Assembly (NCBI GenBank): GCA_963930775.1
Contig: OZ005691.1
Location: 1,798,001-1,862,000 of the forward strand
DNA from: Cliona cf. orientalis
Taxonomy: Eukaryota > Porifera > Demospongiae > Clionaida > Clionaidae
DNA: 64,000 bases
Direction of reading: 5' to 3'
Under the pieces are notes generated by a model. That model was not told the origin of the DNA. It worked only from the letters and a program-made list of their open reading frames with translations, and ran no database searches. How positions within the stretch are numbered: the stretch's first letter is position 1; each line of letters starts with the position of its first letter. Made by a program: the position numbers and the translations under genes. Below, in pieces: positions 28,789 to 60,716 of this stretch.

Positions 28789-28912
28789 CTACGTGTGTGT
28801 GTGAGGGAGTGTGTGAGTGTGTACAGCACATATGTAATAATATTATGAGTTTATTATCTCTACAAAAAATTAGTACGATAATCTTGCCTGAGTGTTCAAG
28901 TTGTGTATAATA

Positions 28913-29084
28913 TACCGTAAATCGCGAATATTTCGTTTCTAAAATGATAATTTTTCACGTTAAATAATTTTCGGACAAACGACCCTGTACCGCATTGTCG
29001 TTAATATTGCGCATACGTTTAATTTTCGCACAAGCCATGGTATCCGAAAATATTTTAACATCGAAATATTCGCGATTTACGGTA
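28913..29084. mobile_element. MITE with TACCGTAAATCGCGAATATT ends
   Basis: 172-bp palindrome-like element. Left TACCGTAAATCGCGAATATT and right AATATTCGCGATTTACGGTA are perfect inverted 20-mers. Flanks are TA-rich, consistent with TA targets. Non-coding. Confidence 0.9.
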
Positions 29085-29097
29085 TACTGGCTACATA

Positions 29098-29799
29098 CAG
29101 TGCAACCAAGCAAGAGAGCAAAACTTTTCTATTTCAGAATTTGAGCCTATTTTGACTCATAAAATAAAATCTATTATAGATAAGAGTTTGAAATTTGGTA
29201 CCAATCTTCTTCAACATAAACTCTACATAGAATTTAAATTATGGGATGTAACCATGATTATTTCCATTTTTATGGCTTCATGAGATAACATGGCTCTCCA
29301 AAATATGTTAGGCACATTAAATGAGTATTGTTTTCGGTTAAGGGTGTGCGCTCTACCCAGTCATGCACATCCATATAAAGTTCATTGGACATGAGTGTAG
29401 AGGCTGTGCAGTGTTTTGCTAACCAGATATTGTCCTAAAATCCCTTTCGGAGGGCCAAATATGTTAGGCACATTTTTTCCTATTTAGTTCTAGTTAAGAA
29501 ATTCCACTTGGTGGGCTGATAGCACTTGTAGTAAAGTTACTAAATCCCAAATTTGAAGTCTTGACTCCTTACCACTTCCAAGATACAGCCACTTTTATCC
29601 AAAATCAGTGAAAAATCTATGAAAACGGGCCTGCACATATGTGGCTTCTGTATTAGCTATATATGGGAAATTTGCAATTTTGTAAAACACAATAAAAATG
29701 ATTGTTGTGGCCATTTTGATATCAAGTAGGTCTGTCTGTGTAGTTTTTAGCCCAAAAATATGGTTTTAAAAAGTTTTGCTCTCTTGCTTGGTTGCACTG
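29098..29799. mobile_element. 702-bp TIR element, CAGTGCAACCAAGCAAGAGA ends, TA target
   Basis: The left end CAGTGCAACCAAGCAAGAGA (29098) reappears inverted at the right end, finishing CACTG at 29799. The terminal repeats continue for about 30 bases (GCAAAACTTTT). TA flanks both sides. The interior has no long open frame, so it is probably a non-autonomous Tc1/mariner-superfamily element. It sits directly beside the MITE ending at 29084. Confidence 0.88.
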
Positions 29800-30101
29800 T
29801 ATAATAATAATATTATGTACTTAGGTGTATGTGTGTGTAACTGCATTTGTTTTGCCACGACCATCTTTGTGCAGTTAACAGTGTGTGTATGTGTTTAAGT
29901 AAACACTTGTGAGATACAAATTTGTTAAAGAAATAAATTCAAATTCATAAAAACAGGACATAATGTATGTATACAAGAGTATTTGTATCAAATCAAATCT
30001 AAGTACTATGTAGGCTTATAATAATAATACAGAAGGGGATGTATTATATAATTGTGTATGTATAAGTTACTCTGCTGAGGCACTACTCCATTATTTATAA
30101 A

Positions 30102-30984
30102 TCACTGCACATAGAGCTCAATCAGTTTAATGGGAATATCTTCTGATTCTGGTGAAAAATAAGTGCAGATCCTCAATTCAATGTCATCAGTTGTTGCATT
30201 GGTCAGGTTCTTTGCAAACCATGGAGGGTTGTTGAACTGACAGCATGTGCTGTTGGATGTACAGTTCTGACCATCCCAGAGGACATCATCGGGAAAGAGC
30301 ACATCTCTATACTGACTGTTATCCCACTCAGAGTGTAGACCACTCTCACAGAAGTAATCATTTCCAACAAATGCAGGGACAACACTGGGTGGTGAAGTAT
30401 CACAAGGGCAGCTAAAGTTAGGAAATATGGTAGTCACTTCACTTGCTCCTGCAGCAAATGTCCAAATATGCTGTCGACTACCACTAGCTCCATGAGTCAG
30501 ACTCACACCATCAACATAGTTGCTATCAATGTAACTAATGTTATGACCAAAAGCACCAGCTGCTCCAAAGTGATATCCCCTTATCCTCCCACACACACGG
30601 CTGTATGGTAAACCTCCAATATTGAATGTGGTTGAAGAACATCCTCCTGCAGTTGTGTGCGATCGTCCACATGTTCTCTTGGAATATGATGTCAAGTTGA
30701 GTCCAGTAGGGCAGTTGTAACTGGTATCAGTCATATTAAATAAAAGCGACACGCCTCCATACTAGTATGCCATTGCAAGTATGAATGAGACTAGTTGAAC
30801 TTAAAATTGCAGAGTTAGCAATTTGATGGATTTCATTTCTCATTATTTCCCTTTCCTCCATCGAAGGACACTGCCATTCATCACCTCTTTCCTTAATCTT
30901 TTGTTCCTGTCCACTGGTTATGATCACCGACTGAGGAGTAGACAGCCAGAGAAGCATAAACAATGCACTAAAGATCAAATTCAT
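30102..30984 (-). pseudogene. Cluster unit 1: secreted Cys-rich family, frameshifted
   Basis: Starts at ATG 30984 (MNLIFSALFMLLWL signal peptide) and reads through CPSMEEREIMRNEIHQIANSAI to WRRVAFI. There the minus-strand AATATG context carries one extra base (around 30736-30745) compared with sister units, so the frame shifts. The following ~210 codons are then open again from NMTDTSYNCPTGLNLTSYSKRTCGRSHTT through HIWTFA, DYFCESG, VLWDGQNC and NNPPWF to ELYVQ-TGA at 30102. Everything else is conserved, so this is either a very young pseudogene or a one-base assembly error. It belongs to the signal-peptide subfamily beginning MN(SAMN)LI, shared with units 3, 4, 8, 9 and 10. Confidence 0.8.
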
Positions 30985-31387
30985 GGCTGAATTCACTCAT
31001 ATCAGCTGAATAGTAGATAACACTAGTTTTGTTCTCAGATCGACAGTAGGACTAAACTTTGAAAATATTAGGTCATAGAGCTGTGTTATTATATAATAAA
31101 CACAACTTCAACAATAAATATTTGTGCAACAGATGCTAGAAACATTAGGTCTATGTAAAATCACACACAAATGACCAAGTAAACATTGAAACAATAAGTT
31201 TCTCAGATACCATGTCGTAGTTAGGCCTGACTTGTTTCAGGCATGAAGGCACTGAGGGCTTGATGCACAATAATATATAGCTATAAATAGGTGGTAGACA
31301 TTATCCTACAACCTATAGTCACCAAGTAGCTCACATACTCAGGACAACGGATTGACCAAACACCTACTTATATAATTAATATCGTCG

Positions 31388-31532
31388 TATAGTGGGAAAT
31401 TTTGTGCTGGTACAAAATTTTGCCGAGTTGCCACCCAGGCAAGCAGAAGAAATTTCATGGTTTTGCTAGTTTTGTGGCAGCTGATCGATCTATCTATGAA
31501 ATAATATGTGAAATTCTATGAAGATTTCCCAC
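31388..31532. mobile_element. MITE with TATAGTGGGAAATTTT end, interrupted at its right end
   Basis: CGTATAGTGGGAAATTTTGTGCTGGTACAAAATTTTGCCG opens an element whose other end (AGATTTCCCACTATACGG in sister copies at 34495 and 45926) is split here by the insertion at 31533. It is part of the duplicated spacer that accompanies several cluster units. Confidence 0.75.
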
Positions 31533-31955
31533 TACCGTATAGCGGGAAATTTTCGCTGGTGCAAAATTTCGCGGATCCGCCATTCACACGTCCAGAAGAA
31601 AATTTCGTGGTTTTAATTTTCGCGTCTTCTCTCCATAAAGACCACACCCACGTCAACAACAACACGCGACATGACGGGGAGAGAGTCCAGTGATTATCGC
31701 CAATACTGATAAAGAGTCATCTCGTTTACACAGCTACAGGTACTAGGTGCAGTCGATCAGTTGTTCATGTATCACGTGCGTGCGCTCGAGCTAGCTAGCT
31801 GGCCTGGCTAGGCTCGCGCTCGCTCGGTCGCACGCGCGCATGCGTATACGCGCACGTGTAAGTTTAAAGTTTCGCGGTTCTTATTTTCGCGGTAGCTGAC
31901 CAATCCGCGAAAAACGCGAAATTTTGCACCATGCGAAAATTTCCCGCTATACGGT
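31533..31955. mobile_element. MITE nested in the end of a related MITE
   Basis: Left TACCGTATAGCGGGAAATTT and right AAATTTCCCGCTATACGGTA are inverted. The interior is GC/CpG-rich and includes a CGCGCGCATGCGTATACGCG-type stretch (near 31835). Sister spacers read CCCACTATACGGTAATACT without it, so the insertion was at a TA inside the older element's terminus. Confidence 0.85.
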
Positions 31956-32264
31956 ATATGGTAATACTAAACATGATTCGTGTCACTTGTATAGACACTT
32001 TGCATGCAAAGTGTCAAAGCAACATGAAAAAGTGATGCAAATCTGTCAAAACAGGCATAACCGATGTCTATAATCTAGCCAACTAAAATCTCCATGCATA
32101 TAAGGTTATGTACCATATAAAATTTATTCTCTCTATAAAATAATGATAATGTTGTCGGAGTGCTTAAGGAAGGACATGTACTGCAATGTACATAGGTGTG
32201 TGCATCATGTGTATGATTTACTTTCATTTATTGAAAGACAGTCCACTACTTGACTGTTTATAAG

Positions 32265-33146
32265 TCACTGCACATAGAGTTCCACGAGTTCAATGGGAAT
32301 ATCATCATCCATTATTGGGCCATTGGTGCAGATCCTCAATTCAATGTCATCAGATGTTGCATTGGGCAGGTTCTTTGTAAACCATGGAGGATTGTTGAAC
32401 TGACAGCATGTACTGGTGGATGTACAGTTCTGACCATCCCAGAGGACATCATCAAATAAGAACACACCAATATGCTGACTGTCAACCCACTCAGACTGTA
32501 AACCACTCTCACAGAAATAATCATTTTCAACAAATGCAGGGGCAGCACGGGCTGATGCTGTATTACAAGGACAGGTTGAAAATCTGTAAAAATCTCTGGA
32601 TACTTCACTTCTACCAGCAGCAAATGTCCAAATATGCTGTCGTCTTCCAGCACCTCCATGAGTCAGACTCACACCATCGACATAGTAACTATTAATACCT
32701 TCGTAGATGGAGCTGTAAAAAGCACCAGTTCTCCCAAACTGGTATCCCCTTATCCTCCCACACACACGGCTGTATGGTAAACCTCCAATACTGAATGTGG
32801 TTGAAGAACATCCTCCTGCAGTTGTGTGTGATCGTCCACAAGTCCTCTTGGAATATGATGTCAAGTTGAGTCCAGTAGGGCAGTCGTAGCTGGTGTCAGT
32901 CATGTTGATAAAAGTAATACGCCTCCATCCCGGTGTGCCACTGCAAACTGAGGATGCAATCACTGAGTCAATAATTTGATAGATTTCATTCCTAGCTCTC
33001 TCCCTTTCCTCCACTGAAGGACACTGCCAATCATCACCTCTTTGCAGCACCTTAGCATTAGTCTTTTGTCCCTGGCCACTGGCTGTATTGATTAATGAAC
33101 CAGGAGCAGACAGCCAGAGAAACAGTAGTAAACAAAGGACAAACAT
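32265..33146 (-). CDS. Cluster unit 2: secreted Cys-rich family protein, intact (293 aa)
   Basis: Single exon from ATG 33146. Signal peptide MFVLCLLLFLWLSAPGS, then a short spacer with WQCPSVEERERARNEIYQI. The conserved ectodomain begins at ~residue 73: GTPGWRRITFINMTDTSYDCP, SKRTCGRSH, PYSRVCGRIRGYQFG, DGVSLTHG, QHIWTFAAG, CPCNTA, AFVENDYFCESG, VLWDGQNC, CCQFNNPPWF, DDIELRIC and terminal ELVELYVQ. There are thirteen cysteines after the signal peptide. NMTD and NLTS are potential N-glycosylation sites. No transmembrane segment or known catalytic motif is visible, so it is probably secreted. A minus-strand AATAAA lies ~33 bases beyond the stop (32227-32232). I recall the same architecture in uncharacterised sponge/cnidarian proteins; function unknown. 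The signal peptide is shared with unit 11. Confidence 0.88.
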   Translation of the reverse strand: MFVLCLLLFLWLSAPGSLINTASGQGQKTNAKVLQRGDDWQCPSVEERERARNEIYQIIDSVIASSVCSGTPGWRRITFINMTDTSYDCPTGLNLTSYSKRTCGRSHTTAGGCSSTTFSIGGLPYSRVCGRIRGYQFGRTGAFYSSIYEGINSYYVDGVSLTHGGAGRRQHIWTFAAGRSEVSRDFYRFSTCPCNTASARAAPAFVENDYFCESGLQSEWVDSQHIGVFLFDDVLWDGQNCTSTSTCCQFNNPPWFTKNLPNATSDDIELRICTNGPIMDDDIPIELVELYVQ

Positions 33147-33575
33147 TATAGTTACTTGAATTCACTTTCTTTTTGCTTATTTACTTGAACAACAGCTAGT
33201 TTGATACCAATCTTCTTGTCCGATAGACACTTCTGAATCTTTATTCGGCAATACTGCTATATAATACGTGAATCATACATATAATATTATGATGTCACGT
33301 TGTGAATAGTAAACATTACAACTTTGTCTAAACAGTTAGAAAATCTAATTTTAAAAAGCAAAAACAGTAATCAGGGTCAATGGATTCCATAGGTTACGTA
33401 TACATTGTATAATTGTACATGGATCAATGAAATACTCCTCAATGAAGCAATATTCCTAACAATAATTATCATAACACACACTGCTGAGCTCACTCTGTAT
33501 AACCTAAGTAAAGACAACAAGACTATCGAAATGCTTAAGGTACAATGTTAGCTGCAATGATGAATCCAATTTCAT

Positions 33576-33860
33576 TTAGTACTCAGTCTGCACGTAGAGC
33601 ATGCACCACACACGCCTCCATCCTGGTGTGCCATTGCGAAAGTGAATGTGGCCAGTTGCAATTAATATTGCAGAGTTAGCAATTTGATGGATTTCATTTC
33701 TCACTGCCTCCCTTTCCTCCACTGAAGGACATTGTAAATCACAGCCATCTGTTTCCAAGACCTTAACATTAGTCAGTTGTCCCTGTCCACTGGTTACAAC
33801 AGAAGATGGCCAGAGAAGCGTAACCAAGGCACTAAGGATTAAATTCATAGCTGAATTCAT
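33576..33860 (-). CDS. Cluster unit 3: internally deleted family member, 94-aa open frame
   Basis: ATG 33860 gives the full signal peptide (MNSAMNLILSALVTLLW) and N-terminal segment (CPSVEEREAVRNEIHQI...GTPGWRRV). The next codons are WCMLYVQTEY-stop: the frame jumps from GWRRV straight to a copy of the terminal LYVQ. About 200 codons of ectodomain are missing, but the product stays open. Unit 8 has the same N-terminus, so unit 3 is a deletion derivative of a unit 8-like gene. It is either a decaying remnant or a gene for a short secreted peptide. The wild-type AATAAA-bearing 3' spacer is not next to it. Confidence 0.65.
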   Translation of the reverse strand: MNSAMNLILSALVTLLWPSSVVTSGQGQLTNVKVLETDGCDLQCPSVEEREAVRNEIHQIANSAILIATGHIHFRNGTPGWRRVWCMLYVQTEY

Positions 33861-34494
33861 TTGTATCTGATTCAGCTGAGTAGTAGATAATACTAGTTTT
33901 GCATGTTCTCAGATCAACACATTAAACATATTAGGTCATACAGCTGTGGTAGTGTTATAATAATAAATACAACTTCAACAATAAAATTAATGTTTTTGCA
34001 ACAGATATTAGCAACATTAGGAATCACACACATGACCATACAGGGAAAGAGACACCTCTTGGTGACGTTGACACATTCAACTTGTTATTCATGACTGATT
34101 TTCGAATATTCGAGATAGATGATCGATAGAGAAGCAGCAGAACCAAGCTAAGGGATGTTTTCAGCCATGTTTTTATCTCAAACTAACAATCGTGCATGGC
34201 TTGAGATTGTGGCCACACCTACTTAATTGTGTGTGGCTACTATTCGAGGGCAGCTACTAATTGGTGTGCAGCTTCTAAATACAGTATCAGTCGTAGTTGG
34301 GCCTGACATGCTTCAGGCACAAAGCCACTCCACTGAGGGCACATGAGAATTAGGTTTTCACTCCTTGATGAAAAATAAGAATATAAATAGGTGATACATT
34401 ATCCTACAATCTACAGTCACCAAGTAGCAGCTCTTACATACTCAGGACAATGGATCGAGCAAATACCTAATAGTATACGTAAAGTAAATAATAT

Positions 34495-34936: not shown

Positions 34937-35843
34937 TCACTGCACATAAAGTTCCACGAGCTCAATGGGAACATCATCTACCGTTATTAGGCTATTAGTG
35001 CAGATCCTCAATTCAATATCATCAGTTGTTGCAGTGGGTAGGTTCTTTGTAAACCATGGAGGATTGTTAAACTGACAGCATGTACTCAGTCTGGTGGACG
35101 AACAGTTCTGACCATCCCAGAGGACATCATCAAAAAAGAATACACCAAAATGCTGACTGTCAACCCACTCAGACTGTAAACCACTCTCACAGAAATAATC
35201 ATTTCCAACAAATGCAGGGGCAGCACGGGCTGATGTTGTATTACAAGGACAGATCGAAAATCTGATAAAATCTCTGGATATTTCACTTCTTCCAGCAGAA
35301 AATGTCCAAATATGCTGTCGTCTTCCAGCACCTCCATGAGTCAGACTCACACCATCAACGTAGTAGCTATTAATACCTTCGTAGATGGAGCTATAAAAAG
35401 CACCAGTTCTCCCAAACTGGTATCCCCTTATCCTCCCACACACACGGCTGTATGGTAAACCTCGAATACTGAACGAGGTTGAAGAACATCCTCCATCAGT
35501 AGTGTGTGATCGTCCACAAGTCCTCTTGGAATATGATGTCAAGTTGAGTCCAGTTGGGCAGTCGTAGCTGGTATCAGTCATATTGATAAAAGCAACACGC
35601 CTCCATCCTGGTGTACCATTGCAAGTGTGAATGAGGCCAGTTGCATTTTAAAATTGCAGAGTTAGCAATTTGATGGATTTCATTTCTCATTGTTTCCCTT
35701 TCCTCCATTGAAGGACACTGCCAATCATCACCTCTTTCTAAGACCTTGACATTAGTATTTTGCCCCTGTCCACTGGCTACGATCACTGACTGAGGAGTGA
35801 ACAGCCAGAGAAATATAAGCAAGGCACTAAGGATTAAATTCAT
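34937..35843 (-). pseudogene. Cluster unit 4: secreted Cys-rich family, frameshifted
   Basis: ATG 35843 (MNLILSALLIFLWLF signal peptide) reads to ANSAIL, where one extra T/A pair (35645-35653: TTTTAAAA versus TTTAAAA in unit 9) shifts the frame and leads to a stop 30 codons later. The remainder, from NMTDTSYDCP to ELYVQ-TGA (34937), is fully open and almost identical to unit 9, including flanks. Minus-strand AATAAA at 34899-34904. A homopolymer indel in an otherwise pristine copy could be an assembly error. If real, this is a very recent pseudogene. Confidence 0.82.
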
Positions 35844-38285: not shown

Positions 38286-39167
38286 TCACTGCACATAGAG
38301 TTCTACGAGTTCAATGGGAATATCATCATCTATTATTCGGCCATTGGTGCAGATCCTCAATTCAATGTCATCAGTTGTTGCATTGGGTAGGTTCTTTGTA
38401 AACCATGGAGGGTTGTTGAACTGACAGCATGTGCTGTTGGACGTACAGTTCTGACCATCCCAGAGGACATCATAGGAAAAGAGCACACCAGCATGCTGAC
38501 TATTATCCCACTCAGAGTGTAGACCACTCTCACAGAAGTAATCGTTTCCAACAAATGCAGAAACAGTACGGTGTGTTGCTGTATCACAAGGACAGGTTAC
38601 TTCAGTGAGAAGTCCGATAGTCACTTCACTTCTTCCAGAAGCAAATGTCCAAATATGCTGTCGTCTCCCACTGGCTCCATGAGTCAGGCTTACACCCTCA
38701 ACGTAGTAGCTATTAATACCTTCAAGTTGGTAGGAGCTGAAAAAAGCACCAGTTCTCCCAAACTGATATCCCCTTATCCTCCCACACACACGGCTGTATG
38801 GTAAACCTCCAACACTGAATGTGGTTGAAGAACATCCTCCATAAGTAGTGTGTGATCGTCCACAAGACTTAGTCCTCTTGGAATATGAAGTCAAATTGAG
38901 TCCAGTAGGGCAGTTGTAGCTGGTGTCAGTCATGTTGATAAAAGCAATACGCCTCCATTCTGGTCCTCTGCAGAATGATGAAATTACAGTTTCACGTATT
39001 TCATTTCTTGCTCTCTCCACCGAAGGACACTGCCCATCATCACTTCCTTGAAGTTCCTTTATGGGAACAGTCATCTGTCCCTGGGCACTGGCTCTCAGAC
39101 TGGTGACTGAGCCAGGAGCAGACAGTGAGAAAGTCGAAAATATCAAGTACAATACAGTCCAGCTCAT
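38286..39167 (-). CDS. Cluster unit 5: secreted Cys-rich family protein, intact (293 aa)
   Basis: Start chosen at ATG 39167 (MSWTVLYLIFSTFSLSAPGS), which aligns with the MNWTVVYLIFSVF signal of units 6, 12 and 14; upstream codons in frame have no ATG. The N-terminal segment is shortened (CPSVERARNEIRETV). The ectodomain is complete: GPEWRRIAFINMTDTSYNCP, SKRTKSCGRSHTT (two extra residues), PYSRVCGRIRGYQFG, EGVSLTHGASGRRQHIWTFASG, CPCDTA, DYFCESG, VLWDGQNC, CCQFNNPPWF, DDIELRIC and ELVELYVQ, ending at 38286. The 3' spacer carries the palindrome insertion at 37923-38196. Likely secreted; role unknown. Confidence 0.88.
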   Translation of the reverse strand: MSWTVLYLIFSTFSLSAPGSVTSLRASAQGQMTVPIKELQGSDDGQCPSVERARNEIRETVISSFCRGPEWRRIAFINMTDTSYNCPTGLNLTSYSKRTKSCGRSHTTYGGCSSTTFSVGGLPYSRVCGRIRGYQFGRTGAFFSSYQLEGINSYYVEGVSLTHGASGRRQHIWTFASGRSEVTIGLLTEVTCPCDTATHRTVSAFVGNDYFCESGLHSEWDNSQHAGVLFSYDVLWDGQNCTSNSTCCQFNNPPWFTKNLPNATTDDIELRICTNGRIIDDDIPIELVELYVQ

Positions 39168-39994: not shown

Positions 39995-40960
39995 TCAAAT
40001 TTTACTGGATGTAGAGTTCGATGAGTTCAAGTGGAACGTTTGCATTTGATAGAGAATTTGGAGTATACAGATCCTCAATTCAATGTCATCAGTTGTCGCA
40101 GTGGGCAGGTTCTTTGTAAACCATGGAGGGTTGTTGAACTGACAGCATGTACTGGTGGATGTACAGTTCTGACCATCCCAGAGAACATCAGGAAAAAATA
40201 CACCAAAATTGCTGCTCCACTCAGAGTGTAGACCACTCTCACAGAAGTAGTCATTTCCAACAAATACAGGGACAACACTGGGTGATGCTGTATCACAAGG
40301 GCAGGCTTCATTGGGAAGTACACCGATAGTTACTTCACTTATTCCAGCAGCAAATGTCCAAATATGCTGTTGCCTTCCAGCAGCTCCATGAGTCAGACTA
40401 ACACCAGCTACATACTGGCCATTGATTCCTACAGCACTATTATGAAAAGCATCAGTTGATCCAACCTGGTATCCCCTTATCCTCCCACACACACGGCTGT
40501 ATGGTAAACCTCCAATACTGAATGTGGTTGAAGAACACCCTCTCCCAGTTGTGTGTGATGCTCCACAAGTCCTCTTGGAATATGTTGTCAAACTGAGTCC
40601 AGTAGGGCAGTTGTAGCTGGTATCAGTCATGTCGATAAAAGCAACACGCCTCCATCCTGGTGTGCCACATATGCCTACTGTGGTAGACATGGTTGTCACA
40701 GCGGGTGTAGTTGTTGCTGGGGTAGTGGTTGATAGCACAGTAGTAGTTGGGGTTGTGGTGGCAATCGCTGAGGAAATAATTTGGCGTATTTCATTCCTAG
40801 CTCTCTCCCTTTCCTCCATTGAAGGACACCGCCCATCATTACCGCCATCAAGCACTTTAATACCAGCTTTTATAATCTGGCCACTGGCTATGTGGATGAC
40901 TGACTCAGGAGCAGACAGACAGAAAACTGAAAAAATTAAGTACACTACAGTCCAGTTCAT
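39995..40960 (-). CDS. Cluster unit 6: family protein with mucin-like linker and frameshifted C-terminal tail
   Basis: ATG 40960 gives MNWTVVYLIFSVFCLSAPES, then CPSMEERERARNEIRQI. A ~30-residue Thr-rich linker (TTTPTTTVLSTTTPATTTPA) precedes GTPGWRRVAFIDMTDTSYNCP. The ectodomain is complete through CCQFNNPPWF and DDIELRIC. After RIC the frame is shifted: it reads ILQILYQMQTFHLNSSNS... to a stop at 39995. The other frame encodes the normal NVPLELIELYIQ-stop about 20 codons later. The product would thus have a novel tail in place of the invariant ELYVQ. Possibly functional with a changed tail, possibly an early pseudogene. Confidence 0.75.
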   Translation of the reverse strand: MNWTVVYLIFSVFCLSAPESVIHIASGQIIKAGIKVLDGGNDGRCPSMEERERARNEIRQIISSAIATTTPTTTVLSTTTPATTTPAVTTMSTTVGICGTPGWRRVAFIDMTDTSYNCPTGLSLTTYSKRTCGASHTTGRGCSSTTFSIGGLPYSRVCGRIRGYQVGSTDAFHNSAVGINGQYVAGVSLTHGAAGRQQHIWTFAAGISEVTIGVLPNEACPCDTASPSVVPVFVGNDYFCESGLHSEWSSNFGVFFPDVLWDGQNCTSTSTCCQFNNPPWFTKNLPTATTDDIELRICILQILYQMQTFHLNSSNSTSSKI

Positions 40961-41753: not shown

Positions 41754-42135
41754 TCATTGGATGTAGAGTTCGATGAGTTCAAGTGCAACATCTGAATTAC
41801 TTACACTCACAAGACAGATCCTCAATTCAATGTCATTAGCTGTAACAAAAGGCAGGTTCATGGAGGGTTATTGAACTGATAGCATGTGCTGGTGGATGTG
41901 CAGTTCTGACCATCCCAGAGGACATCATTGGAAAAGAATACAAAAGCATAACTGCATGGTGTACCACTCTGAGTGTAGACCACTCTCACGGAAGTAGTCA
42001 TTTCCAACAAATGCAGGAACAACACTGGGTGGTGCTGTATCACAAGGACAGCCAAAGTTGGAGTTAGGATATCTGATAGTTACTTCGCTTGCTCCAGCAG
42101 CAAATGTCCAAATATGCGGTCGATTGCCAGGGGCT
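41754..42135 (-). pseudogene. Cluster unit 7: 3' half remnant
   Basis: Minus strand from the HIWTFAA region down to a terminal ELIELYIQ-TGA at 41754. It contains CPCDT, FVGNDYFRESG (Cys lost), VLWDGQNC and FNNPP, but the segment encoding WFTKN is deleted near 41862-41870. Several frameshifts occur, for example after HSEW. The 5' half is absent: at about 42135 it abuts sequence shared with 58300 onward, so truncation coincided with a duplication or deletion breakpoint. Clearly dead. Confidence 0.85.
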
Positions 42136-42946: not shown

Positions 42947-42955
42947 TTAATATTA

Positions 42956-46361: not shown

Positions 46362-47267
46362 TCACTGCACATAGAGTTCCACGAGTTCAATGGGAACATC
46401 ATCTACCGTTATTAGGCTATTAGTGCAGATCCTCAATTCAATATCATCAGTTGTTGCAGTGGGTAGGTTCTTTGTAAACCATGGAGGATTGTTAAACTGA
46501 CAGCACGTACTCAGTCTGGTGGACGAACAGTTCTGACCATCCCAGAGGACATCATCAAAAAAGAATACACCAAAATGCTGACTGTCAACCCACTCAGACT
46601 GTAAACCACTCTCACAGAAATAATCATTTCCAACAAATGCAGGGGCAGCACGGGCTGATGCAGTATTACAAGGACAGGTTGAAAATCTGATAAAATCTCT
46701 GGATACTTCACTTCTTCCAGCAGCAAATGTCCAAATATGCTGTCGTCTTCCAGCACCTCCATGAGTCAGACTCACACCATCAACGTAGTAGCTATTAATA
46801 CCTTCGTAGATGGAGCTATAAAAAGCACCAGTTCTCCCGAACTGGTATCCCCTTATCCTCCCACACACATGGCTGTATGGTAAACCTCGAATACTGAATG
46901 AGGTTGAAGAACATCCTCCATCAGTAGTGTGTGATCGTCCACAAGTCCTCTTGGAATATGATGTCAAGTTGAGTCCAGTAGGGCAGTCGTAGCTGGTATC
47001 AGTCATATTGATAAAAGCAACACGCCTCCATCCTGGTGTACCATTGCAAGTGTGAATGAGGCCAGTTGCATTTAAAATTGCAGAGTTAGAAATTTGATGG
47101 ATTTCATTTCTCATTGTTTCCCTTCCCTCCATTGAAGGACACTGCCAGTCATCACCTCTTTCCAAGACCTTGACACTAGTCTTTTGTCCCTGTCCACTGG
47201 CTATGATCACCGACCGAGGAGAAGACAGCCAGAGAAACATAAGCAAGGCACTAAGGATTATATTCAT
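46362..47267 (-). CDS. Cluster unit 9: secreted Cys-rich family protein, intact (301 aa)
   Basis: ATG 47267; signal peptide MNIILSALLMFLWLSSPRS. CPSMEGRETMRNEIHQISNSAI is followed by TCNGTPGWRRVAFINMTDTSYDCPTGLNLTSYSKRTCGRSH and PYSHVCGRIRGYQFGRTGAFYSS. Next come DGVSLTHGGAGRRQHIWTFAAG, CPCNTA, AFVGNDYFCESG, VLWDGQNC, CCQFNNPPWF, DDIELRIC and ELVELYVQ-TGA. Thirteen cysteines follow the signal peptide. Minus-strand AATAAA at 46334-46339. Unit 4 is a nearly identical copy with a single-base frameshift, so unit 9 best represents the ancestral reading frame of this subfamily. Probably secreted; role unknown. Confidence 0.9.
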   Translation of the reverse strand: MNIILSALLMFLWLSSPRSVIIASGQGQKTSVKVLERGDDWQCPSMEGRETMRNEIHQISNSAILNATGLIHTCNGTPGWRRVAFINMTDTSYDCPTGLNLTSYSKRTCGRSHTTDGGCSSTSFSIRGLPYSHVCGRIRGYQFGRTGAFYSSIYEGINSYYVDGVSLTHGGAGRRQHIWTFAAGRSEVSRDFIRFSTCPCNTASARAAPAFVGNDYFCESGLQSEWVDSQHFGVFFFDDVLWDGQNCSSTRLSTCCQFNNPPWFTKNLPTATTDDIELRICTNSLITVDDVPIELVELYVQ

Positions 47268-48033: not shown

Positions 48034-48900
48034 TCACTGCACATAGAGTTCTACGAGTTCAATGGGAATATCATCAATTGTTATTGGGCCATTAGTGCAG
48101 ATCCTCAATTCAATGTCATCAGATGTCATAGTAGGCAGGTTCTTTGTAAACCATGGAGGACTGTTGAGCTGACAGCATGTGCTATTGGATGTACAGTCCT
48201 GACCATCCCAGAGAACATCATCGGGAAAGAGCACACCAACATGCTGACTGTCATCCCACTCAGAGTGTAGACCACTCTCACAGAAGTAATCAATTCCAAC
48301 AAATGCAGGGGCAGTAGTAGTTCTGGATGATGTTGGATCACAAGGACAGGTTGGAAATCTGCTGGTTACTTCACTTCTTCCAACAGCAAATGTCCAAATA
48401 TGCTGTCGCTTTCCAGCACCTCCATGAGTCAGACTCACACCATCGACGTAGAAACTATTAATACCTGCAAAGGAGAAGTAGAAAGCACCAGTTCTCCCAA
48501 ATTGGTATCCCCTTATCCTCCCACACACACGGCTGTATGGTAAACCTCCAACACTGAATGTGGTTGAAGAACACCCCGAAGTAGTGTGTGATCGTCCACA
48601 TGTCCTCTTGGAATATGATGTCAAGTTGAGTCCAGTAGGGCAGTTGTAGCTGGTATCAGTCATGTTGATAAAAGCAACACGCTTCCATCCTGGTGAGCCA
48701 TTGCAAGTATGAATGTGGCCAGTTGCATTTAAAATTGCAGAGTTAGCAATTTGATGGATTTCATTTCTTATTGTTTCCCTTTCCTCCATTGAAGGACACT
48801 GCCAATCATCACCTCTTTCCAAGACCTTGATACTAGTCTTTTGTCCCTGTCCACTGGCTACAACCACAGACTGAGGAGCAGACAGCCAGAGAAGCAGCAC
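48034..48900 (-). pseudogene. Cluster unit 10: family gene with broken start (8-bp deletion in signal peptide)
   Basis: The ectodomain is fully open (CPSMEERETIRNEIHQI to ELVELYVQ-TGA at 48034). The signal-peptide codons run LLLWLSAPQS and are in frame only back to GTG 48900; further upstream a stop closes the frame. Compared with unit 8, the eight bases TAACCAAG (plus strand) are missing near 48896. The normal ATG (MNSAMNLILSA...) therefore reads into another frame and stops after about 30 codons. The first in-frame ATG is in MEERE, which would lack a signal peptide. Either a pseudogene by start loss or a cytosolic product. Minus-strand AATAAA at 47996-48001. Confidence 0.78.
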
Positions 48901-49989: not shown

Positions 49990-50859
49990 TCACTGCACAT
50001 AAAGTTCCACGAGTTCAATGGGAACATCATCTACCGTTACTAGGCTATTAGTGCAGATCCTCAATTCAATATCATCAGTTGTTGTAGTGGGCAGGTTCTT
50101 TGTAAACCATGGAGGATTGTTAAACTGACAGCATGTACTGGTGGACGAACAGTTCTGACCATCCCAGAGAACATCATCGGGAAAGAGCACACCTCTATGC
50201 TGACTGTCAACCCACTCAGAGTGTACACCACTCTCACAGAAGTAATCGTTTCCAACAAATGCAGGGGCAGTAGTAGTACTGGATGACGCTGGATCACAAG
50301 GACAGGTTGGAAATCTGCTGGATACTTCACTTCTTCCAACAGCAAATGTCCAAATATGCTGTCGTCTTCCAGCACCTCCATGAGTCAGACTCACACCATC
50401 AACGTAGTAACTATTAATACCTTCGTTGGAGCTGTAAAAAGCACCAGCTACTCCAAACTGATATCCTCTTATTTTCCCACACACACGGCTGTATGGTAAA
50501 CCTCCAACGCTGAATGTGGTTGAAGAACATCCTCCATGAGTAGTGTGTGATCGTCCACAAGTCCTCTTGGAATATGATGTCAAGTTGAGTCCAGTAGGGC
50601 AGTTGTAGCTGGTGTCAGTCATGTTGATAAAAGCAATACGCCTCCATCCTGGTGAGCCATTGCAATAGGAGTCAATCACTGAGGCAACAATTTGATGGAT
50701 TTCATTTCTTGTTGCCTCCACTAAAGGACATTGTAAATCACAGCCACCTGTTTCCAGTACCTTAATATCAGTCTTTAGACCCTGGCCACTGGTTGCACTA
50801 ATTACTGAACCAGGAACAGACAGCCAGAGAAACAAGAACGGTGAACAAAGGACAAACAT
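49990..50859 (-). CDS. Cluster unit 11: secreted Cys-rich family protein, intact (289 aa)
   Basis: ATG 50859; signal peptide MFVLCSPFLFLWLSVPGS as in unit 2. CPLVEATRNEIHQI, then CNGSPGWRRIAFINMTDTSYNCP, SKRTCGRSH and PYSRVCGKIRGYQFG. Then DGVSLTHGGAGRRQHIWTFAVG, CPCDPASSSTTTAPAFVGNDYFCESG, VLWDGQNC, CCQFNNPPWF, DDIELRIC and ELVELYVQ-TGA. The SSTTTAP insertion between CPCD and FVG is shared with unit 10 (SSRTTTAP), a sign of gene conversion or block duplication between neighbours. Minus-strand AATAAA at 49950-49955. Likely secreted. Confidence 0.9.
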   Translation of the reverse strand: MFVLCSPFLFLWLSVPGSVISATSGQGLKTDIKVLETGGCDLQCPLVEATRNEIHQIVASVIDSYCNGSPGWRRIAFINMTDTSYNCPTGLNLTSYSKRTCGRSHTTHGGCSSTTFSVGGLPYSRVCGKIRGYQFGVAGAFYSSNEGINSYYVDGVSLTHGGAGRRQHIWTFAVGRSEVSSRFPTCPCDPASSSTTTAPAFVGNDYFCESGVHSEWVDSQHRGVLFPDDVLWDGQNCSSTSTCCQFNNPPWFTKNLPTTTTDDIELRICTNSLVTVDDVPIELVELYVQ

Positions 50860-52329: not shown

Positions 52330-53229
52330 TTACTGGACGTAGAGTTCAATAAGTTCAAGTGGAATATCTGCATACAATATATCGGTACAGATCCTCAATT
52401 CAATGTCCGACTCTTCAGTTGTGGCATTGGGCAGGTTCTTTGCAAACCATGGAGGGTTGTTGAACTGACAGCATGTGCTGTTGGATGTACAGTTCTGACC
52501 ATCCCAGAGAACATCATCGGGAAAAAGCATAAGATCTTCATCTACTGTAACAGTGTAATTCCACTCAGAGTGTACACCACTCTCACAGAAGTAATCATTC
52601 CCAACAAATGCAGGGACAATACTGGGTGATGCAGTGTTACAAGGGCAAGCATAACTGTCATCAAAAATGGTAGTCATTTCACCTGCTCCTGCAGCAAATG
52701 TCCAAACGTGCTGTCGGCTGCCAGCAGCTCCATAAGTCAGACTAATACCCTCAACATAGTAGCTATCAATGTTAATCCCTCGAGTAGACGAAAAGAAAGC
52801 AATAGGTGCTCCAAGCTGGTATCCCCTCATCCTCCCACACACGCAGCTGTATGGACCTCCAACACTGAATGTGGTTGAAGAACATTCCTCTCCTATATGT
52901 GATGGTCCACACGTTCTCTTGGAATATGACGTCAAATTGAGTCCAATAGGGCAGTCGTGGCTGGTGTCAGTCATGTTGATAAAAGCAATACGCCTCCATC
53001 CTGGTGTGCCATTGCAACTGTATTCACCTACAGTCACTGAGCCAACAGCTTGATCAATTTCATTTCTTGCTCTCTCTCCTTCCTCCACTGAAGGGCATTG
53101 CCCATCATCACCGCCATCAAGCACTTTAGCACCAGCTATTATAATCTGGCCACTGGCTATGCGGATGACTGATCCAGGAGCAGATAATGAGAAAACTGAA
53201 ATAATCAAGTACACTACAGTCCAGTTCAT
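52330..53229 (-). CDS. Cluster unit 12: secreted Cys-rich family protein, intact (299 aa)
   Basis: ATG 53229 gives MNWTVVYLIISVFSLSAPGS (as in units 5, 6 and 14), then CPSVEEGERARNEIDQ, CNGTPGWRRIAFINMTDTSHDCP, SKRTCGPSH and SVGGPYSCVCGRMRGYQLG. Two residues are missing from GGLPYSR and an extra Cys has been gained. Next come EGISLTYGAAGSRQHVWTFAAG, CPCNTA, AFVGNDYFCESG, VLWDGQNC, CCQFNNPPWF, then EESDIELRIC and ELIELYVQ-TAA. It is more diverged than other units at otherwise invariant sites (THG to TYG, HIW to HVW), suggesting an older or functionally distinct member. Probably secreted. Confidence 0.88.
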   Translation of the reverse strand: MNWTVVYLIISVFSLSAPGSVIRIASGQIIIAGAKVLDGGDDGQCPSVEEGERARNEIDQAVGSVTVGEYSCNGTPGWRRIAFINMTDTSHDCPIGLNLTSYSKRTCGPSHIGEECSSTTFSVGGPYSCVCGRMRGYQLGAPIAFFSSTRGINIDSYYVEGISLTYGAAGSRQHVWTFAAGAGEMTTIFDDSYACPCNTASPSIVPAFVGNDYFCESGVHSEWNYTVTVDEDLMLFPDDVLWDGQNCTSNSTCCQFNNPPWFAKNLPNATTEESDIELRICTDILYADIPLELIELYVQ

Positions 53230-53606: not shown

Positions 53607-53669
53607 TCACTGGACGGAGAGTTCAATAAGTTCAAGTGGAACATTGGAACTATTTGCATATTTCACAAG
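53607..53669 (-). pseudogene. Cluster unit 13: isolated C-terminal tail
   Basis: Only 20 codons plus stop remain: LVKYANSSNVPLELIELSVQ, closest to the tail of unit 15. It is joined to a MITE-like sequence (53670-53820, compare 39420-39600) and then to a 5' spacer typical of units 2 and 11 (from 53830). Confidence 0.75.
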
Positions 53670-53829
53670 TAGAAAAAATTTTAACGATTCTAAATATTTT
53701 GTGCTACCACTCCAACAAGACCACACCCACTGCTTCAAAATTAGCACTATACAATAAAATTTTGTGGCTCTTATTTTCACGGCAGCTGATCGATTCATGA
53801 AAATAGCAAAATTCTATGAAGATTTCCAT

Positions 53830-55356: not shown

Positions 55357-56529
55357 TCACTGCACATAGAGTTCAATGAGTTCAATGGGAACATCATCAA
55401 TTGTTATTGGGCCATTAGTGCAGATCCTCAATTCAACATCATCAACTGTGGCAATTGGCAGGTTCTTTGTAAACCATGGAGGGTTGTTGAACTGACAGCA
55501 TATGCTGTTGGATGTACAGTTCTGACCATCCCAGAGAATATCATCGGAAAAGAGCATACCAGCATGCTGACTCCCATCCCACTCAGAGTGTAGACCACTC
55601 TCACAGAAATAATCATTTCCAACAAATGCAGGGGCAGCACGGGCTGATGCTGTATCACAAGGACAGATTGAAAATATAAATCTGGCAGTCACTTCACTTC
55701 TTCCAGCAGCAAATGTCCAAATATGCTGTCGTCTTCCAGCACCTCCATGAGTCAGACTCACACCATCAACATAGTAACTATTAATACCTTGGTAGATGGA
55801 GCTGTAAAAAGCACCAGTTTTCCCAAACTGGTATCCCCTTATCCTCCCACACACACGGCTGTATGGTAAACCTCCAACACTGAATGTGGTTGAAGAACAT
55901 CCTCCATCAGTAGTGTGTGATCGTCCACAAGTCCTCTTGGAATATGATGTCAAACTGAGTCCGGTAGGGCAGTCGTAGCTGATGTCAGTCATGTTGATAA
56001 AAGCAACACGCCTCCATCCTGGTGTACCATTGCAAGTGTATGTAGGAGTCACAGTGGGCACAATTGTCACAGAGGCAGCTGTAGGCATAGAGGTTACAGA
56101 GGCAGTGGTAAGTATAGTGAAGAGTGCAGAGGCAGTGGTAGGACTGAGGGTTACAGAGTCAGTGATAGGTACAGAGATGGGAGAGTCAGTAATAAGTACA
56201 GATGCTGTGGTAGGCACAGAGGTAGTTATAGAAGAAGTAGACATAGTAGTTAGAGAGTCAATGGTGGTGGACATAGCTGTTGCTGAGGAGGTTGCAGTCG
56301 AGGCAATGGTGGCGAGTGATGATATGTCGGCAAGTAATGAATTGACGATTTGATCAATTTCATTCCGAGCTCTCTCTCCTTCCTCCACTGAAGGGCACCG
56401 CCCATCATCACCGCCTCCAAGCACTTTAACACCAGCTATTATAATCTGGCCACTGGCTATGCGGATGACTGATCCAGGAGCAGATAGACAGAAAACAGAA
56501 AAAATCAAGTACACTACAGACCAGTTCAT
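55357..56529 (-). CDS. Cluster unit 14: longest family member with mucin-like linker (390 aa)
   Basis: ATG 56529: MNWSVVYLIFSVFCLSAPGS signal peptide, then CPSVEEGERARNEIDQIVNSL. About 115 residues rich in Ser, Thr, Ala and Val follow (T-T-A-S-V and I-T-D-S-V style repeats), probably O-glycosylated if secreted. The canonical ectodomain then runs CNGTPGWRRVAFINMTDISYDCP, SKRTCGRSH, PYSRVCGRIRGYQFG, DGVSLTHGGAGRRQHIWTFAAG, CPCDTA, DYFCESG, ILWDGQNC, CCQFNNPPWF, DDVELRIC and ELIELYVQ-TGA. The linker lies exactly where units 6 and 15 also carry Ser/Thr insertions, and other units have none. It is encoded by short imperfect tandem repeats, so length may vary between individuals. Confidence 0.9.
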   Translation of the reverse strand: MNWSVVYLIFSVFCLSAPGSVIRIASGQIIIAGVKVLGGGDDGRCPSVEEGERARNEIDQIVNSLLADISSLATIASTATSSATAMSTTIDSLTTMSTSSITTSVPTTASVLITDSPISVPITDSVTLSPTTASALFTILTTASVTSMPTAASVTIVPTVTPTYTCNGTPGWRRVAFINMTDISYDCPTGLSLTSYSKRTCGRSHTTDGGCSSTTFSVGGLPYSRVCGRIRGYQFGKTGAFYSSIYQGINSYYVDGVSLTHGGAGRRQHIWTFAAGRSEVTARFIFSICPCDTASARAAPAFVGNDYFCESGLHSEWDGSQHAGMLFSDDILWDGQNCTSNSICCQFNNPPWFTKNLPIATVDDVELRICTNGPITIDDVPIELIELYVQ

Positions 56530-56870
56530 TCTCAAGTGAGCTTTCTTGAACTTTAATTTAATGCTTGCAGCTCATAAATAAGGGGCTTTTGTACTTCTAG
56601 ATAAGCCATGACCAAATGTATGTCATGCAGACAACTTTAATTAATTTAAATTGGCTATAGGCTTCTTGGAATGACCATTGAGTTCACAAGTTCATATTGC
56701 AAAATTTATGGAATTCCCAAATGATTGCACTATCTTCCCAGAATACTAGCCCCTCCACAGTTAATTGAATACAACATCTGAAATTCCACTATTTATGGCA
56801 AAACTTTTCTATATACTAGAAGTTATTACTATAATTTATTAGGTAAAAATGCATGTGGTTCAAATTAAAT

Positions 56871-57851
56871 TTACTGGACGAAGAGTTCGATAAGTTCAAG
56901 TGGAACATCGGAACTATCCGCATATTTCACAAGACAGATCCTCAATTCAATGTCATCAGTTGTTGCATTGGGCAGATTCTTTGTAAACCATGGAGGATTG
57001 TTGAACTGACAGCATGTGCTAATGGATGTACAGTTTTGACCATCCCAGAGGACATCATTGGAATGAAATATACCAAACTGGCCATCAAATATGGAGTGTA
57101 GACCACTCTCACAGAAGTAATCACTTCCAACAAATGCAGGAACAACACTGGGTGGTACTGTATCACAAGGGCAGGCATGATGAGAAAACATGGTAGTCAC
57201 TTCACTCAGTCCAGCAGCAAATGTCCAAATATGCTGTCGACTTCCAGCACCTCCATGAGTCAGGCTTACACCATCAATATAGTAGCTATCAATGCCTTGG
57301 GCATTAATAAATCCACCAACTGCTCCAACCTGATATCCCCTTATCCTCCCACACACACCGCTGTATGGTAAACCTTCAACACTGAATGTGGTTGAAGAAC
57401 ACCCTGCAGTTGTGAGTGAAGCTCCACAAGTCCTCTTGGAATATGATGTCAAATTGAGTCCAGCAGGGCAGTTGTAACAGGTGTTGGTCATGTCGATAAA
57501 AGCAACACGCCTCCATTCTGGTCCACTGCAGCCAGTCATAGTGGGATGCATATGGGTAGCTATAGAGTCAGTGGTAGACATAGTTTTTGCTGAATTTGCG
57601 GTCGATGATAATGGGACGACAGTAGTCGAGGCCCCAGGGGTGGTGGGAAATGCGTCGGCAATTACCGAGGTAACAATCTGGTGGATTTCATTTCTTGCTT
57701 CCTCTCGTTCGTCCACTGAAGCACACCGCCCATTGCCATCTCCTTCCAAAACCTTAAAGTCGGTCATTTGCACTCCAGCACTGGCTACATTAACTGACCA
57801 AGGAGCAGGAAGCCAGAAAAGTAGAAGTATTGAAGAAAGGACACAAACCAT
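56871..57851 (-). CDS. Cluster unit 15: secreted Cys-rich family protein with Ser/Thr linker, intact (326 aa)
   Basis: ATG 57851: signal peptide MVCVLSSILLLFWLPAPWS, distinct from the other subfamilies. CASVDEREEARNEIHQI is followed by a ~45-residue Ser/Thr/Pro linker (TTPGASTTVVPLSSTANSA). The ectodomain starts GCSGPEWRRVAFIDMTNTCYNCP and continues with SKRTCGASLTT, PYSGVCGRIRGYQVG, DGVSLTHGGAGSRQHIWTFAAG, CPCDTV, DYFCESG, VLWDGQNC, CCQFNNPPWF, DDIELRIC and ELIELFVQ-TAA at 56871. The final Y of ELYVQ is F here. It is the most upstream unit in host-transcript order and the most divergent. Probably secreted; role unknown. Confidence 0.9.
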   Translation of the reverse strand: MVCVLSSILLLFWLPAPWSVNVASAGVQMTDFKVLEGDGNGRCASVDEREEARNEIHQIVTSVIADAFPTTPGASTTVVPLSSTANSAKTMSTTDSIATHMHPTMTGCSGPEWRRVAFIDMTNTCYNCPAGLNLTSYSKRTCGASLTTAGCSSTTFSVEGLPYSGVCGRIRGYQVGAVGGFINAQGIDSYYIDGVSLTHGGAGSRQHIWTFAAGLSEVTTMFSHHACPCDTVPPSVVPAFVGSDYFCESGLHSIFDGQFGIFHSNDVLWDGQNCTSISTCCQFNNPPWFTKNLPNATTDDIELRICLVKYADSSDVPLELIELFVQ

Positions 57852-58019
57852 GCTTCAATCAATCTCTTTTTTTTGGCTAGTTAATAATATTTGCTTGATT
57901 AGCTAGTCCGATTTTAATCTAGTCTTTGGATCAATATTTTGCACTTGGACCGTACACTACTAACACGCAAATACATGTAAAATATAAATGTGCATGGCTA
58001 TTTATAGGAAATTACTACA

Positions 58020-58235
58020 TACCGTATAGCAGGAAACTTTGGCGGTGTTTTTTTAATTTGGCGATTTGGCAAATTCAGTATAGATCGCCAAATTAAAAAT
58101 TCACCAAATGAATTTAATACATGTACAGCTGTGGTGGCAAGCAATTAAATTGCCAAATTTAAACTTGCCAATACCAATGGAGAGCCATTTCGCTAAGTTT
58201 AATGCTCGCCAAAGTTACCCACTGTATGCTATACG
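58020..58235. mobile_element. MITE with TACCGTATAGCAGGAAAC end
   Basis: Left TACCGTATAGCAGGAAACTTTGG; the right end is degraded (GCCAAAGTTACCCACTGTATG). Interior GGCGATTTGGC/GCCAAATT arms are shared with 28498-28703. Confidence 0.75.
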
Positions 58236-58294
58236 TGTAGCTCACAACAAGAATTATATTGAGCTGCAGAACCATCCTAGGAGCCGATCAACAA

Positions 58295-59660
58295 CCTGTA
58301 GCATTAATTGTGACGTGAGTGAAAGTGTAATACTTCCTTGTGTCTGCCGTATACTTGAGCAAACTTGCACAATAGCAGGAAAATTTTAATGTACACACAT
58401 TTTAGGGCACAAACATGATTACAATCAGGAGCACACGCCACCCATAGAGGTTTTGGCTGTAGCTTCTCAGACACTAGTCTCCCAAAATGTGGTTAGTTAA
58501 TGCCAAAAATCGTAGCTGTGAATTAATTACACATGTATTTCACTTGTAGTTAACTGATCCAAAATGGGCTATTCTAGTATTTCCTTAAAATGACATACAT
58601 GTAAATTAGAGTGGTTATCAGACATTTAGCTTCCTAAGGAAAGTCACACACAACACTGCACGAGATCTAGGAATTGGAAATTCCCCATCAGTTTCACTAA
58701 TCATCCACAGTACTTAAATATTATTATAAATATCAATTTTAGTGCACTATAACAAAATCTAAAGTGAATGGCACATATTATTTGATATCACTTTGCAAGA
58801 CATACTCGTATACAAATTATAGGAAGTGACATGTTATAAGCACAAGGGAAATTCGTAAATACATGTACAAACACTTCCAGGAAACACCCGACACAGGATA
58901 TTGGGCGCATACATGTAGAGGTACATGGACACAGTGCCACCAGACACGACTTGACTGGTGCCTTCCTTTTCACGATAAACAAAATTAATGACGTAGTGAA
59001 GCATAATTAAGTATCATATTTAAGATAAATAAAGTTAATGATGTATAATGACGTGGCACAAGTACTATGGCAGAAGTATATCGAGCAGATACATGTATAC
59101 ATGTAACTTATCACTACGCACACTGATGCATGTATATAGACTGCCTGACTTCGATAATATCATTATGTACATGGCAGTGCTTAATACCAAGTTCAGTTAA
59201 TATTAAATTATTAATGTTCTAATTAAGAAGGAAGTGAGTGGCTACAAGGGATTCTACCTGGACACAATAATCTGTACATGGCAGTGCTTAATAAGAAGTT
59301 TAGTTAACATTTAATTAAACATTTATCAATATTCCAATTTAGGAGGAAGTGAAAGGGTCAGTGGTGGCTATTCCACCACAAAATGTACACAGCTTTGGTA
59401 GAGTAATCAGGCTATTGGCATACACATGCGCATACTACATGTGTACACGTATCCTCTAGCTGGCTGGACACACTCACTCTCCCTCCCCCTCCCTTTCTCT
59501 CCCTCTCTCTCCCCCGTCCTCCCTCCCTCCCCGCCCACTAATTCATTAACTATCAAGCAGAATGAGGCAAAGCTCACAAAAGTGGCCTCTACATTCATAC
59601 ATACATACATGCACACACATAAGCAGAAGGGATGTTTATTTATTCTTCATTTGCATACTT
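58295..59660. repeat. Segmental duplication partner of 42150-43930
   Basis: Matches begin at GCATTAATTGTGACGTGAGT (58301) and, after an unshared stretch, resume at TTATTAATGTTCTAATTAAG (59208) through ATGCACACACATA.GCAGAAG. Divergence is roughly 10%. This copy lacks the TIR elements found in the other. Confidence 0.8.
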
Positions 59661-60010
59661 GTAGCTGGACAAGATTCTGATTACGTGACAGCTGCACTGT
59701 AGTGTAGGGTGGAAACTCACCTACGTACATGTACATTTACACATATCATACAAATTGTAGCAAATTCGCTCATTTTCCAAATGACTAGCCACCAAGATGT
59801 ACACAAAAGATAGGAAAACATGCCTGTACACGCGTAGCATTGATACATGTAGAAGCAGACTAACACGTAGAGAGATTACTAACACACACAGAACACATGT
59901 ATAGGCGTGAAAACATGTGCATCCATGTATATAATACATCCTTACGTACGTACATGTAAGTATATTGCACAGATGTACATGAGCATATAAGGGGCACACA
60001 AGATAAGTAA

Positions 60011-60137
60011 ATTTCCAGGGATCTTCCCTCTCAATCGCAAGTCAGCTAATGCAGAGAAGACTGTGCAGCTTCAAGAGGTTTCAGAAGCCACCAGAAGAGG
60101 AAATTTTCCATGTGAATGTTTGGCGAACAAGCAGCAG
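60011..60137 (+). other. Exon-like stretch with splice signals (uncertain)
   Basis: TTTCCAG acceptor-like, then two open frames and a strong donor GTGAGTGTG at 60138. One frame reads NAEKTVQLQEVSEATRRGNF, the other LMQRRLCSFKRFQKPPEEEI. No homologue recognised; it is opposite in strand to the host gene. Could be a transposon-derived exon. Confidence 0.2.
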
Positions 60138-60716
60138 GTGAGTGTGTATATCCCTTACCCCCTTCCCTGCATGCGGGAAGAAATATGGCCGGCCCTGGAC
60201 GATGATTTCAGATGTGGTCACACTATAGATCAACGTAGCTACGTAGATACAAGATGGGTTATGGTGCTTATATAGCTTATTCAATATCTCAGTATGGGCA
60301 GAGCCCTAGCTCAGTGCACATTGGCATCCCTCCACTTCTGGGGTACATTTAGGCACATCCTTAAGTTCTCTATGACTCGTAGTATTTTCAGTGTCCCAGC
60401 TAAAGGAGGCATATACCTTCCTTTAGAGGAAATAAAGATTAATATGTGTCTGTTATCATCCGGACTAAAGGAGATACACAGACATCCAGTGAGTACTTTA
60501 TTACTGGTTTTTCATGAAGTCTCATCTCAAGGCCATGGGTAGCTCATGGACTATATAATATGAGACTTGATAAATCATAATATGTGCATGTATATACATG
60601 TGGGTACATGTATGGTCATGCACAGCATATCGATTAAAGGAGGACTCCTCCTTTCATGAGTAGTAATAGTAGTATTCTCATAATAAGCTTTAGAATTTCA
60701 CAAGTCATTGACTCAC

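Follow-up and report, generated by a model that had tools for sequence, protein, structure and literature searches.

How can a housekeeping gene come to hold a whole family of other genes in one of its introns, and what does this mean for the host? We address this question at a locus of the sponge Cliona cf. orientalis, in a window of 64,000 nt (C3:1798001-1862000) from a 216.8-Mb assembly, where one 31.9-kb intron of a USP10-like deubiquitinase gene contains 15 units of a single protein family. Positions without a contig or locus name refer to this window. The anatomy of the USP10 cluster is real and clean, and the same family repeatedly settles in introns, those of USP10 and of at least three other genes.

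USP10 exons flank the cluster and join in phase

The following parts of the host gene lie in the window.

63997-64000, minus strand: 3' end of a USP10 exon at the window edge; the whole exon (63997-64068, SESIWSVKDAMEALATKEIVRMSE) runs on into locus L009 (in-phase join, AG...GT borders)
60717-60861, minus strand: USP10 exon on the upstream side of the cluster intron, with the LPPILILHLKRF block (in-phase join, UCH match, genome search)
28789-60716, minus strand: USP10 intron with the cluster, 31,928 bp (GT donor at 60716, AG acceptor at 28789, no N)
28723-28788, minus strand: USP10 exon of 66 bp on the downstream side of the cluster (in-phase join, genome search)
24714-24922, minus strand: final coding exon of USP10, bearing the His/Asp box GGHYT ... 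DDS (in-phase join, genome search)

Joining the exons at 60717-60861, 28723-28788, and 24714-24922 gives a single open frame; every exon is preceded by an AG acceptor, and the first two are followed by a GT donor. Upstream, exon 63997-64068 and its predecessor also join in phase, making five joined exons in total. The joined peptide of 139 amino acids (aa) matched positions 141-254 of the Pfam family UCH (PF00443) with an E value of 2.2e-22. It also matched USP catalytic domains in the PDB and was colinear with USP15 chains across both joins in the three alignments shown. The gene therefore has the UCH catalytic domain, including the His/Asp box, that is expected of a USP10 orthologue.

More USP10 exons were found upstream in locus L009, including GRQEDAEEFLG...EEWEQVGPKNKSTITRQ and GLINQGNWCYMHAV, and the Cys-box peptide GLINQGNWCY was located there by eye. 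The same locus has a stop-to-stop frame of 552 aa (L009:4511-6169, minus strand) in which LFGSFSEED was read by eye about 70 residues in. The two exon peptides and this frame resemble human USP10. The FGSF of the host, read by eye, is a candidate for the G3BP-binding motif of USP10, which is FG(D/E)F in aligned vertebrate sequences (PMC4450067); it agrees only with the broader FGxF pattern (D, E, or S) allowed by the search in that paper.

A whole-genome search with the joined peptide gave 13 matches, comprising the three C3 exons at 97%, 98%, and 96% identity and 10 others at 28%-49%. Since the host exons are found only on C3, an intact USP10 must splice across 28789-60716. The original prediction, that three USP10 exons join in phase and enclose the cluster in a 31.9-kb intron, is thus borne out by the joins, the UCH match, and the single location of the exons. 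The stretch is repetitive and comes from a single assembly, so that misplacement of the cluster between USP10 exons had to be considered. However, it lies in one contig of 11.96 Mb, the window is without any N, the host exons occur nowhere else in the genome, and similar arrangements were seen at three other loci. On these grounds we reject an assembly error, which is very improbable.

The neighbouring USP10 introns are 3,800 bp (24923-28722) and 3,135 bp (60862-63996) long. By coordinates, the cluster intron without its cluster would measure 1,313 + 2,865 = 4.2 kb, near the size of these neighbours.

Fifteen units of one family lie on the host strand

When the seven intact units were used as tblastn queries, 16 stretches were recovered between 30105 and 57851, and all 16 were on the minus strand, which is the host strand. 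The stretches 43977-44422 and 44834-45328 represent the two ends of a single unit parted by 411 bp, giving 15 units. Open reading frame is abbreviated ORF.

56871-57851, minus strand: intact unit, 326 aa (ORF and tblastn)
55357-56529, minus strand: intact unit, 390 aa, long Ser/Thr-rich linker (ORF and tblastn)
53610-53669, minus strand: fragment, final 20 codons (tblastn)
52330-53229, minus strand: intact unit, 299 aa (ORF and tblastn)
49990-50859, minus strand: intact unit, 289 aa (ORF and tblastn)
48034-48882, minus strand: unit broken by stops near its 5' end, open part 251 aa (ORF, genome search, tblastn)
46362-47267, minus strand: intact unit, 301 aa (ORF and tblastn)
43974-45328, minus strand: unit split by a 411-bp insert at 44423-44833 (N-terminal part aa 1-161, C-terminal part aa 155-293)
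41757-42134, minus strand: fragment, C-terminal third (tblastn)
39995-40960, minus strand: unit with an open frame of 321 aa and a frameshifted C-terminus (ORF and tblastn)
38286-39167, minus strand: intact unit, 293 aa (ORF and tblastn)
34937-35843, minus strand: frameshifted unit (final 620 nt of its coding DNA 606/618 identical to the corresponding end of the 46362 unit)
33534-33860, minus strand: fragment, first ~106 codons (tblastn)
32265-33146, minus strand: intact unit, 293 aa (ORF and tblastn)
30102-30984, minus strand: unit with a frameshift near codon 86 (tblastn)

Seven units are thus intact, one is open with a frameshifted C-terminus, four are near full length but broken by a frameshift, stop, or insert, and three are fragments. 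A second copy of the 411-bp insert was not found in the sequence examined for it. The intact units are single-exon ORFs of 289-390 aa and lie inside one intron of another gene, which makes them nested intronic genes at the DNA level. The predicted common strand and the absence of introns from complete units were both confirmed. The predicted count of 15 holds when broken units are included, but as intact genes there are only seven.

Their common strand and position would also suit alternative exons of USP10. However, every intact unit starts with an ATG of its own, encodes a hydrophobic N-terminus, and ends in a stop, and similar single-frame genes of ~300 aa are found in arrays outside the USP10 intron. 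We reject this reading, which is hardly credible given these complete ORFs and the arrays elsewhere.

The USP10 intron also contains MITE-like elements at 28911-29086 and 31533-31956, whose inverted repeats start TATACCGTAAATCGCG and TACCGTATAGC. Two features were read by eye next to the host gene: a plus-strand ORF of 506 aa (21856-23376) with a RING-like cysteine pattern at its end, just past the 3' end of USP10, and, upstream on the minus strand of L010 (~5000-7400), exons resembling an Aurora-type kinase.

Unit proteins are constrained and the units are mosaic

All seven intact units encode a hydrophobic N-terminus and 13-15 cysteines, without a second strongly hydrophobic stretch, suggesting that the proteins are probably secreted and cysteine-rich. 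The Ser/Thr-rich linker is longer in two of the seven. The units matched no known family: Pfam gave no family for any of three units at E up to 5, the best NCBIfam hit of two units searched had an E value of 0.23, and no PDB match was obtained by sequence (E up to 1) or by profile (E up to 10). Prokaryote genomes and viral contigs were scanned with two short peptide patterns per scan, derived from 11 closely related units; 25 and 9 stretches matched, none of which was a relative by tblastn, and distant relatives could escape such patterns. Six peptide words of the family matched no paper in a literature search.

The ratio of nonsynonymous to synonymous substitution rates (dN/dS) was 0.38-0.58, with a median of 0.49, across the 21 pairs among the seven intact units. 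The intact unit proteins are under purifying selection, constrained but loosely.

The copies are diverged, and non-coding flanks were copied along with the genes (repeat families D15, D16, D18, and D20). Four modules were compared across 11 units using local matches only; pairwise flank identities were set aside because the aligner inflates them (random 80-mers average 0.80). The units are mosaic. Unit 32265 has 49990 as its upstream partner (139/167) and 46362 as its domain partner (580/620), with a near tie for the N-terminal module. The upstream partner is 55357 for both unit 52330 (247/301) and unit 39995, whose domains are nearest to those of 30102 and 56871, respectively. Such switching of partners along the units is what unequal exchange or gene conversion would be expected to produce in tandemly arrayed genes.

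Introns of three other genes hold the same family

A genome search with one unit scored at least 131 of 749 first-look candidates and gave 145 match rows, which include second stretches of units already matched; with a divergent member as query, at least 140 of 668 were scored. The two match lists overlap, and both counts are lower bounds. Large arrays were found on contigs C2, C5, and C11. Many units of the C2 array (L021-L048) appear by eye to have, in the upstream 95 nt, a block like TTGTTTGCTGTACA...CATATAAGTCAAGATTGA before the ATG, which is missing in the USP10-intron units.

A second cluster lies in an intron of NFU1 on contig C6. Nfu_N positions 1-67 matched C6:7909598-7909795, positions 65-88 matched C6:7881525-7881596 (alone only at E 1.65), and NifU positions 34-67 matched C6:7869312-7869413, all on the minus strand. 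The first two exons are in phase across 28,007 bp, and the peptide joined from them matched Nfu_N 35-88 with an E value of 2.5e-19. This intron (L052, L061, L065-L069; C6:7881599-7909607) contains nine family units, of which two were recovered with the first query and seven with the divergent member. Eight lie antisense to NFU1 on the plus strand, and the ninth is on the minus strand. Seven have long open frames, one contains a stop, and one is partial. The cluster belongs mainly to another subfamily, ~40% identical to the window units, which expanded separately from the USP10 cluster. A single clade for eight of the nine units was rejected by the approximately unbiased test (p-AU 0.00025, with a caveat of long branches), indicating two subfamilies; the family therefore entered this intron at least twice, or members were exchanged.

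Two further hosts hold one unit each. On C15 (L054:3690-5991), a plus-strand unit lies antisense in a 2,300-bp intron whose flanking exons join in phase. The pieces of this host, read in order, match AAA, the Cdc6/ORC lid, and Cdc6_C, and we take the gene to be ORC1. A second set of exons matching Cdc6_C was noticed at C15:2027968-2028489. On C1, a minus-strand unit (L063:2811-3626; C1:3095810-3096625) lies antisense in a receptor-like gene on the plus strand, between two immunoglobulin (Ig) exons and two FN3 exons; the splice borders there were judged by eye only. USP10 can thus no longer be seen as a unique or special host, as had been supposed.

It may then be asked whether the nesting reflects chance only: the family is large and dispersing, introns are a big share of an animal genome, and USP10 would have no special meaning. 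We lean towards this view, which is compatible with the history of the cluster proposed below; it is favoured by the many places of the family genome-wide, by the four different hosts, and by the frequency of nested genes in several sponges and other animals. The sponge table lists 2,432 nested genes in Aphrocallistes, 3,358 in Amphimedon, and 5,032 in Sycon (PMC10282587), and nested genes, many of them parallel to the host, are described as holding 12.24% of exonic bases in a ctenophore (PMC8527503). However, the same table has 83 for Oopsacas and 0 for Ephydatia; counts depend much on annotation method, and its authors state that low ones are probably due to annotation settings (PMC10282587). 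Moreover, among the 12 dispersed loci inspected (window, L049-L054, L056, L057, L060, L063, and L064), four were nested, two looked intergenic, and six were undecided, a count that is no test of enrichment. The intergenic-looking loci are L049, beside OSGEP, and L064, beside a gene read by eye as VAP without Pfam support. At L049 (C3:912000-921900), minus-strand units stand next to two similar plus-strand OSGEP/TsaD C-terminal stretches (PF00814 for one of them), an arrangement that looks like a local segmental duplication.

The window units cluster together in trees

A careful tree was built from 52 of 56 collected rows, after L052_39 and L060_52 (long branches) and L055_46 and L029_8 (oddly long or partial) had been dropped. 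This tree placed 11 of the 12 window units in a single clade (84/90) and 28 other units (27 from C2 and one from C9) in another (99/99); one clade uniting all 12 window units was not rejected (p-AU 0.40). In a quick tree of 60 rows, without L055_46, L029_8, and L060_52, all 12 window units were on one side of a branch against the C2 and NFU1 groups, with a Shimodaira-Hasegawa-like approximate likelihood ratio test (SH-aLRT) value of 82; 13 ungrouped rows were not counted. These trees suggest that the USP10-intron cluster was founded by one, possibly two copies.

Could the cluster truncate its host?

AATAAA or ATTAAA was found at +23 to +37 past the stop in seven of the 12 units examined, in keeping with the earlier claim of poly(A) signals just past several stops. 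A signal lies within 60 nt in five of the seven intact window units versus none of the 28 C2-array units, and shuffles predict ~17% per gene. With the units on the host strand, the cluster might act as a regulatory switch, in which firing units make the host polymerase stop and polyadenylate in the intron, giving a USP10 with the Cys box and without the His/Asp exon. Transcripts polyadenylated prematurely within the cluster would miss this downstream exon and yield a catalytically dead USP10. Such interference has been reported for H13/Mcts2, where transcription of the nested gene affects the host transcript, although that case involves one imprinted nested gene and no cluster (PMC13309782). 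However, six of the seven signals sit within one 3' module common to the units and were perhaps inherited by descent. AATAAA occurs 28 times in sense and 23 times in antisense in the USP10 intron, showing neither evident gain nor depletion, and eight of the nine NFU1 units are antisense, so that the arrangement is not general. We regard the switch as improbable.

Still less probable is the widest reading of the locus, namely that a lineage-specific secreted family repeatedly founds intron clusters in housekeeping genes (USP10 and NFU1, and singly ORC1 and the Ig/FN3 gene) and that the USP10 cluster is now a switch truncating its host before the His/Asp exon, linking the deubiquitinase and stress-granule control to secreted-protein expression. 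Such cluster-driven truncation would be the most interesting consequence, if true.

A founder probably entered the intron and was amplified in place

Very probably, a founder entered the USP10 intron and was multiplied by tandem duplication and exchange, and the units are separate genes that are spliced out with the intron. According to this model, a large animal family of single-exon, probably secreted, cysteine-rich proteins would have placed one founder, possibly two, in an ordinary USP10 intron of ~4 kb. The founder would have been amplified by tandem duplication together with its flanks, copies would have been lost, and 5' and 3' parts swapped between copies, enlarging the intron to 31.9 kb. 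The units, each with its own 5' and 3' flanks, would be separate genes with promoters of their own; the host polymerase would transcribe through them, and splicing would remove them with the intron. Their proteins may be secreted and have a role outside the cell in defence or recognition. Most likely, the nesting is of no use and is simply tolerated.

Several observations weigh against this model. In the careful tree, window unit 56871 groups with two C6 units of the NFU1 intron (95/92), and a FastTree analysis of all 56 rows again grouped these two with 56871; there would thus have been two founders or an export. A common promoter was not found: the unit upstream regions fall into unrelated groups and lack by eye the block seemingly common to the C2-array units. 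Expression of the units and splicing across 31.9 kb are both predicted from the DNA sequence. Two structure predictions from window sequences alone were unusable, with mean predicted local distance difference test (pLDDT) values of 30 and 44, and the suggested molecular role of the proteins is a guess.

Comparison with known systems

Intron-nested genes are common, and clusters in unrelated housekeeping introns of one genome provide a natural series. This series lets one ask how host transcription copes with units on the same strand (USP10) versus the opposite strand (NFU1), and also bears on whether introns shelter fast-changing secreted families. It is also a warning that gene models of such genomes may miss or break housekeeping genes with gene-filled introns. 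No family nested in several hosts turned up in our literature search, which is weak evidence of absence. Nor did that search turn up a paper in which a deubiquitinase hosts a cluster of this sort, and this feature may well be new.

Many intronless tandem genes of one family, KRTAP10/KRTAP12, lie in an intron of TSPEAR, an arrangement for which the literature search gave no confirmation; these encode vertebrate hair proteins, and the host is different. The TipE genes in the last CG18675 intron are likewise described as a gene family nested in one intron, but their cluster comprises four nested family genes with a stable order across insects, and escapes from nesting are inferred in two lineages (PMC3240667).

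A close likeness is found in Drosophila melanogaster, in which 12 GMC oxidoreductase genes spanning 80.9 kb lie in an intron of >83.2 kb of Flo-2 (flotillin-2), all in one orientation (PMC1891103). As in the USP10 intron, with its 15 units (seven intact), one family has expanded within a single intron of a conserved gene unrelated to it. The supposition that no such expansion had been described therefore fails for introns generally, and may stand for a deubiquitinase host. Unlike the units described here, the GMC genes are antisense to their host, and their cluster is described as including one non-GMC gene and as kept across four insects (PMC1891103). In the USP10 intron, by comparison, about half of the units are broken, and the family fills an NFU1 intron as well. 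Thus, the intron-nested family cluster is known as a kind, and the present one differs in sharing the strand of its host and in the recurrence of its family in the introns of four genes.

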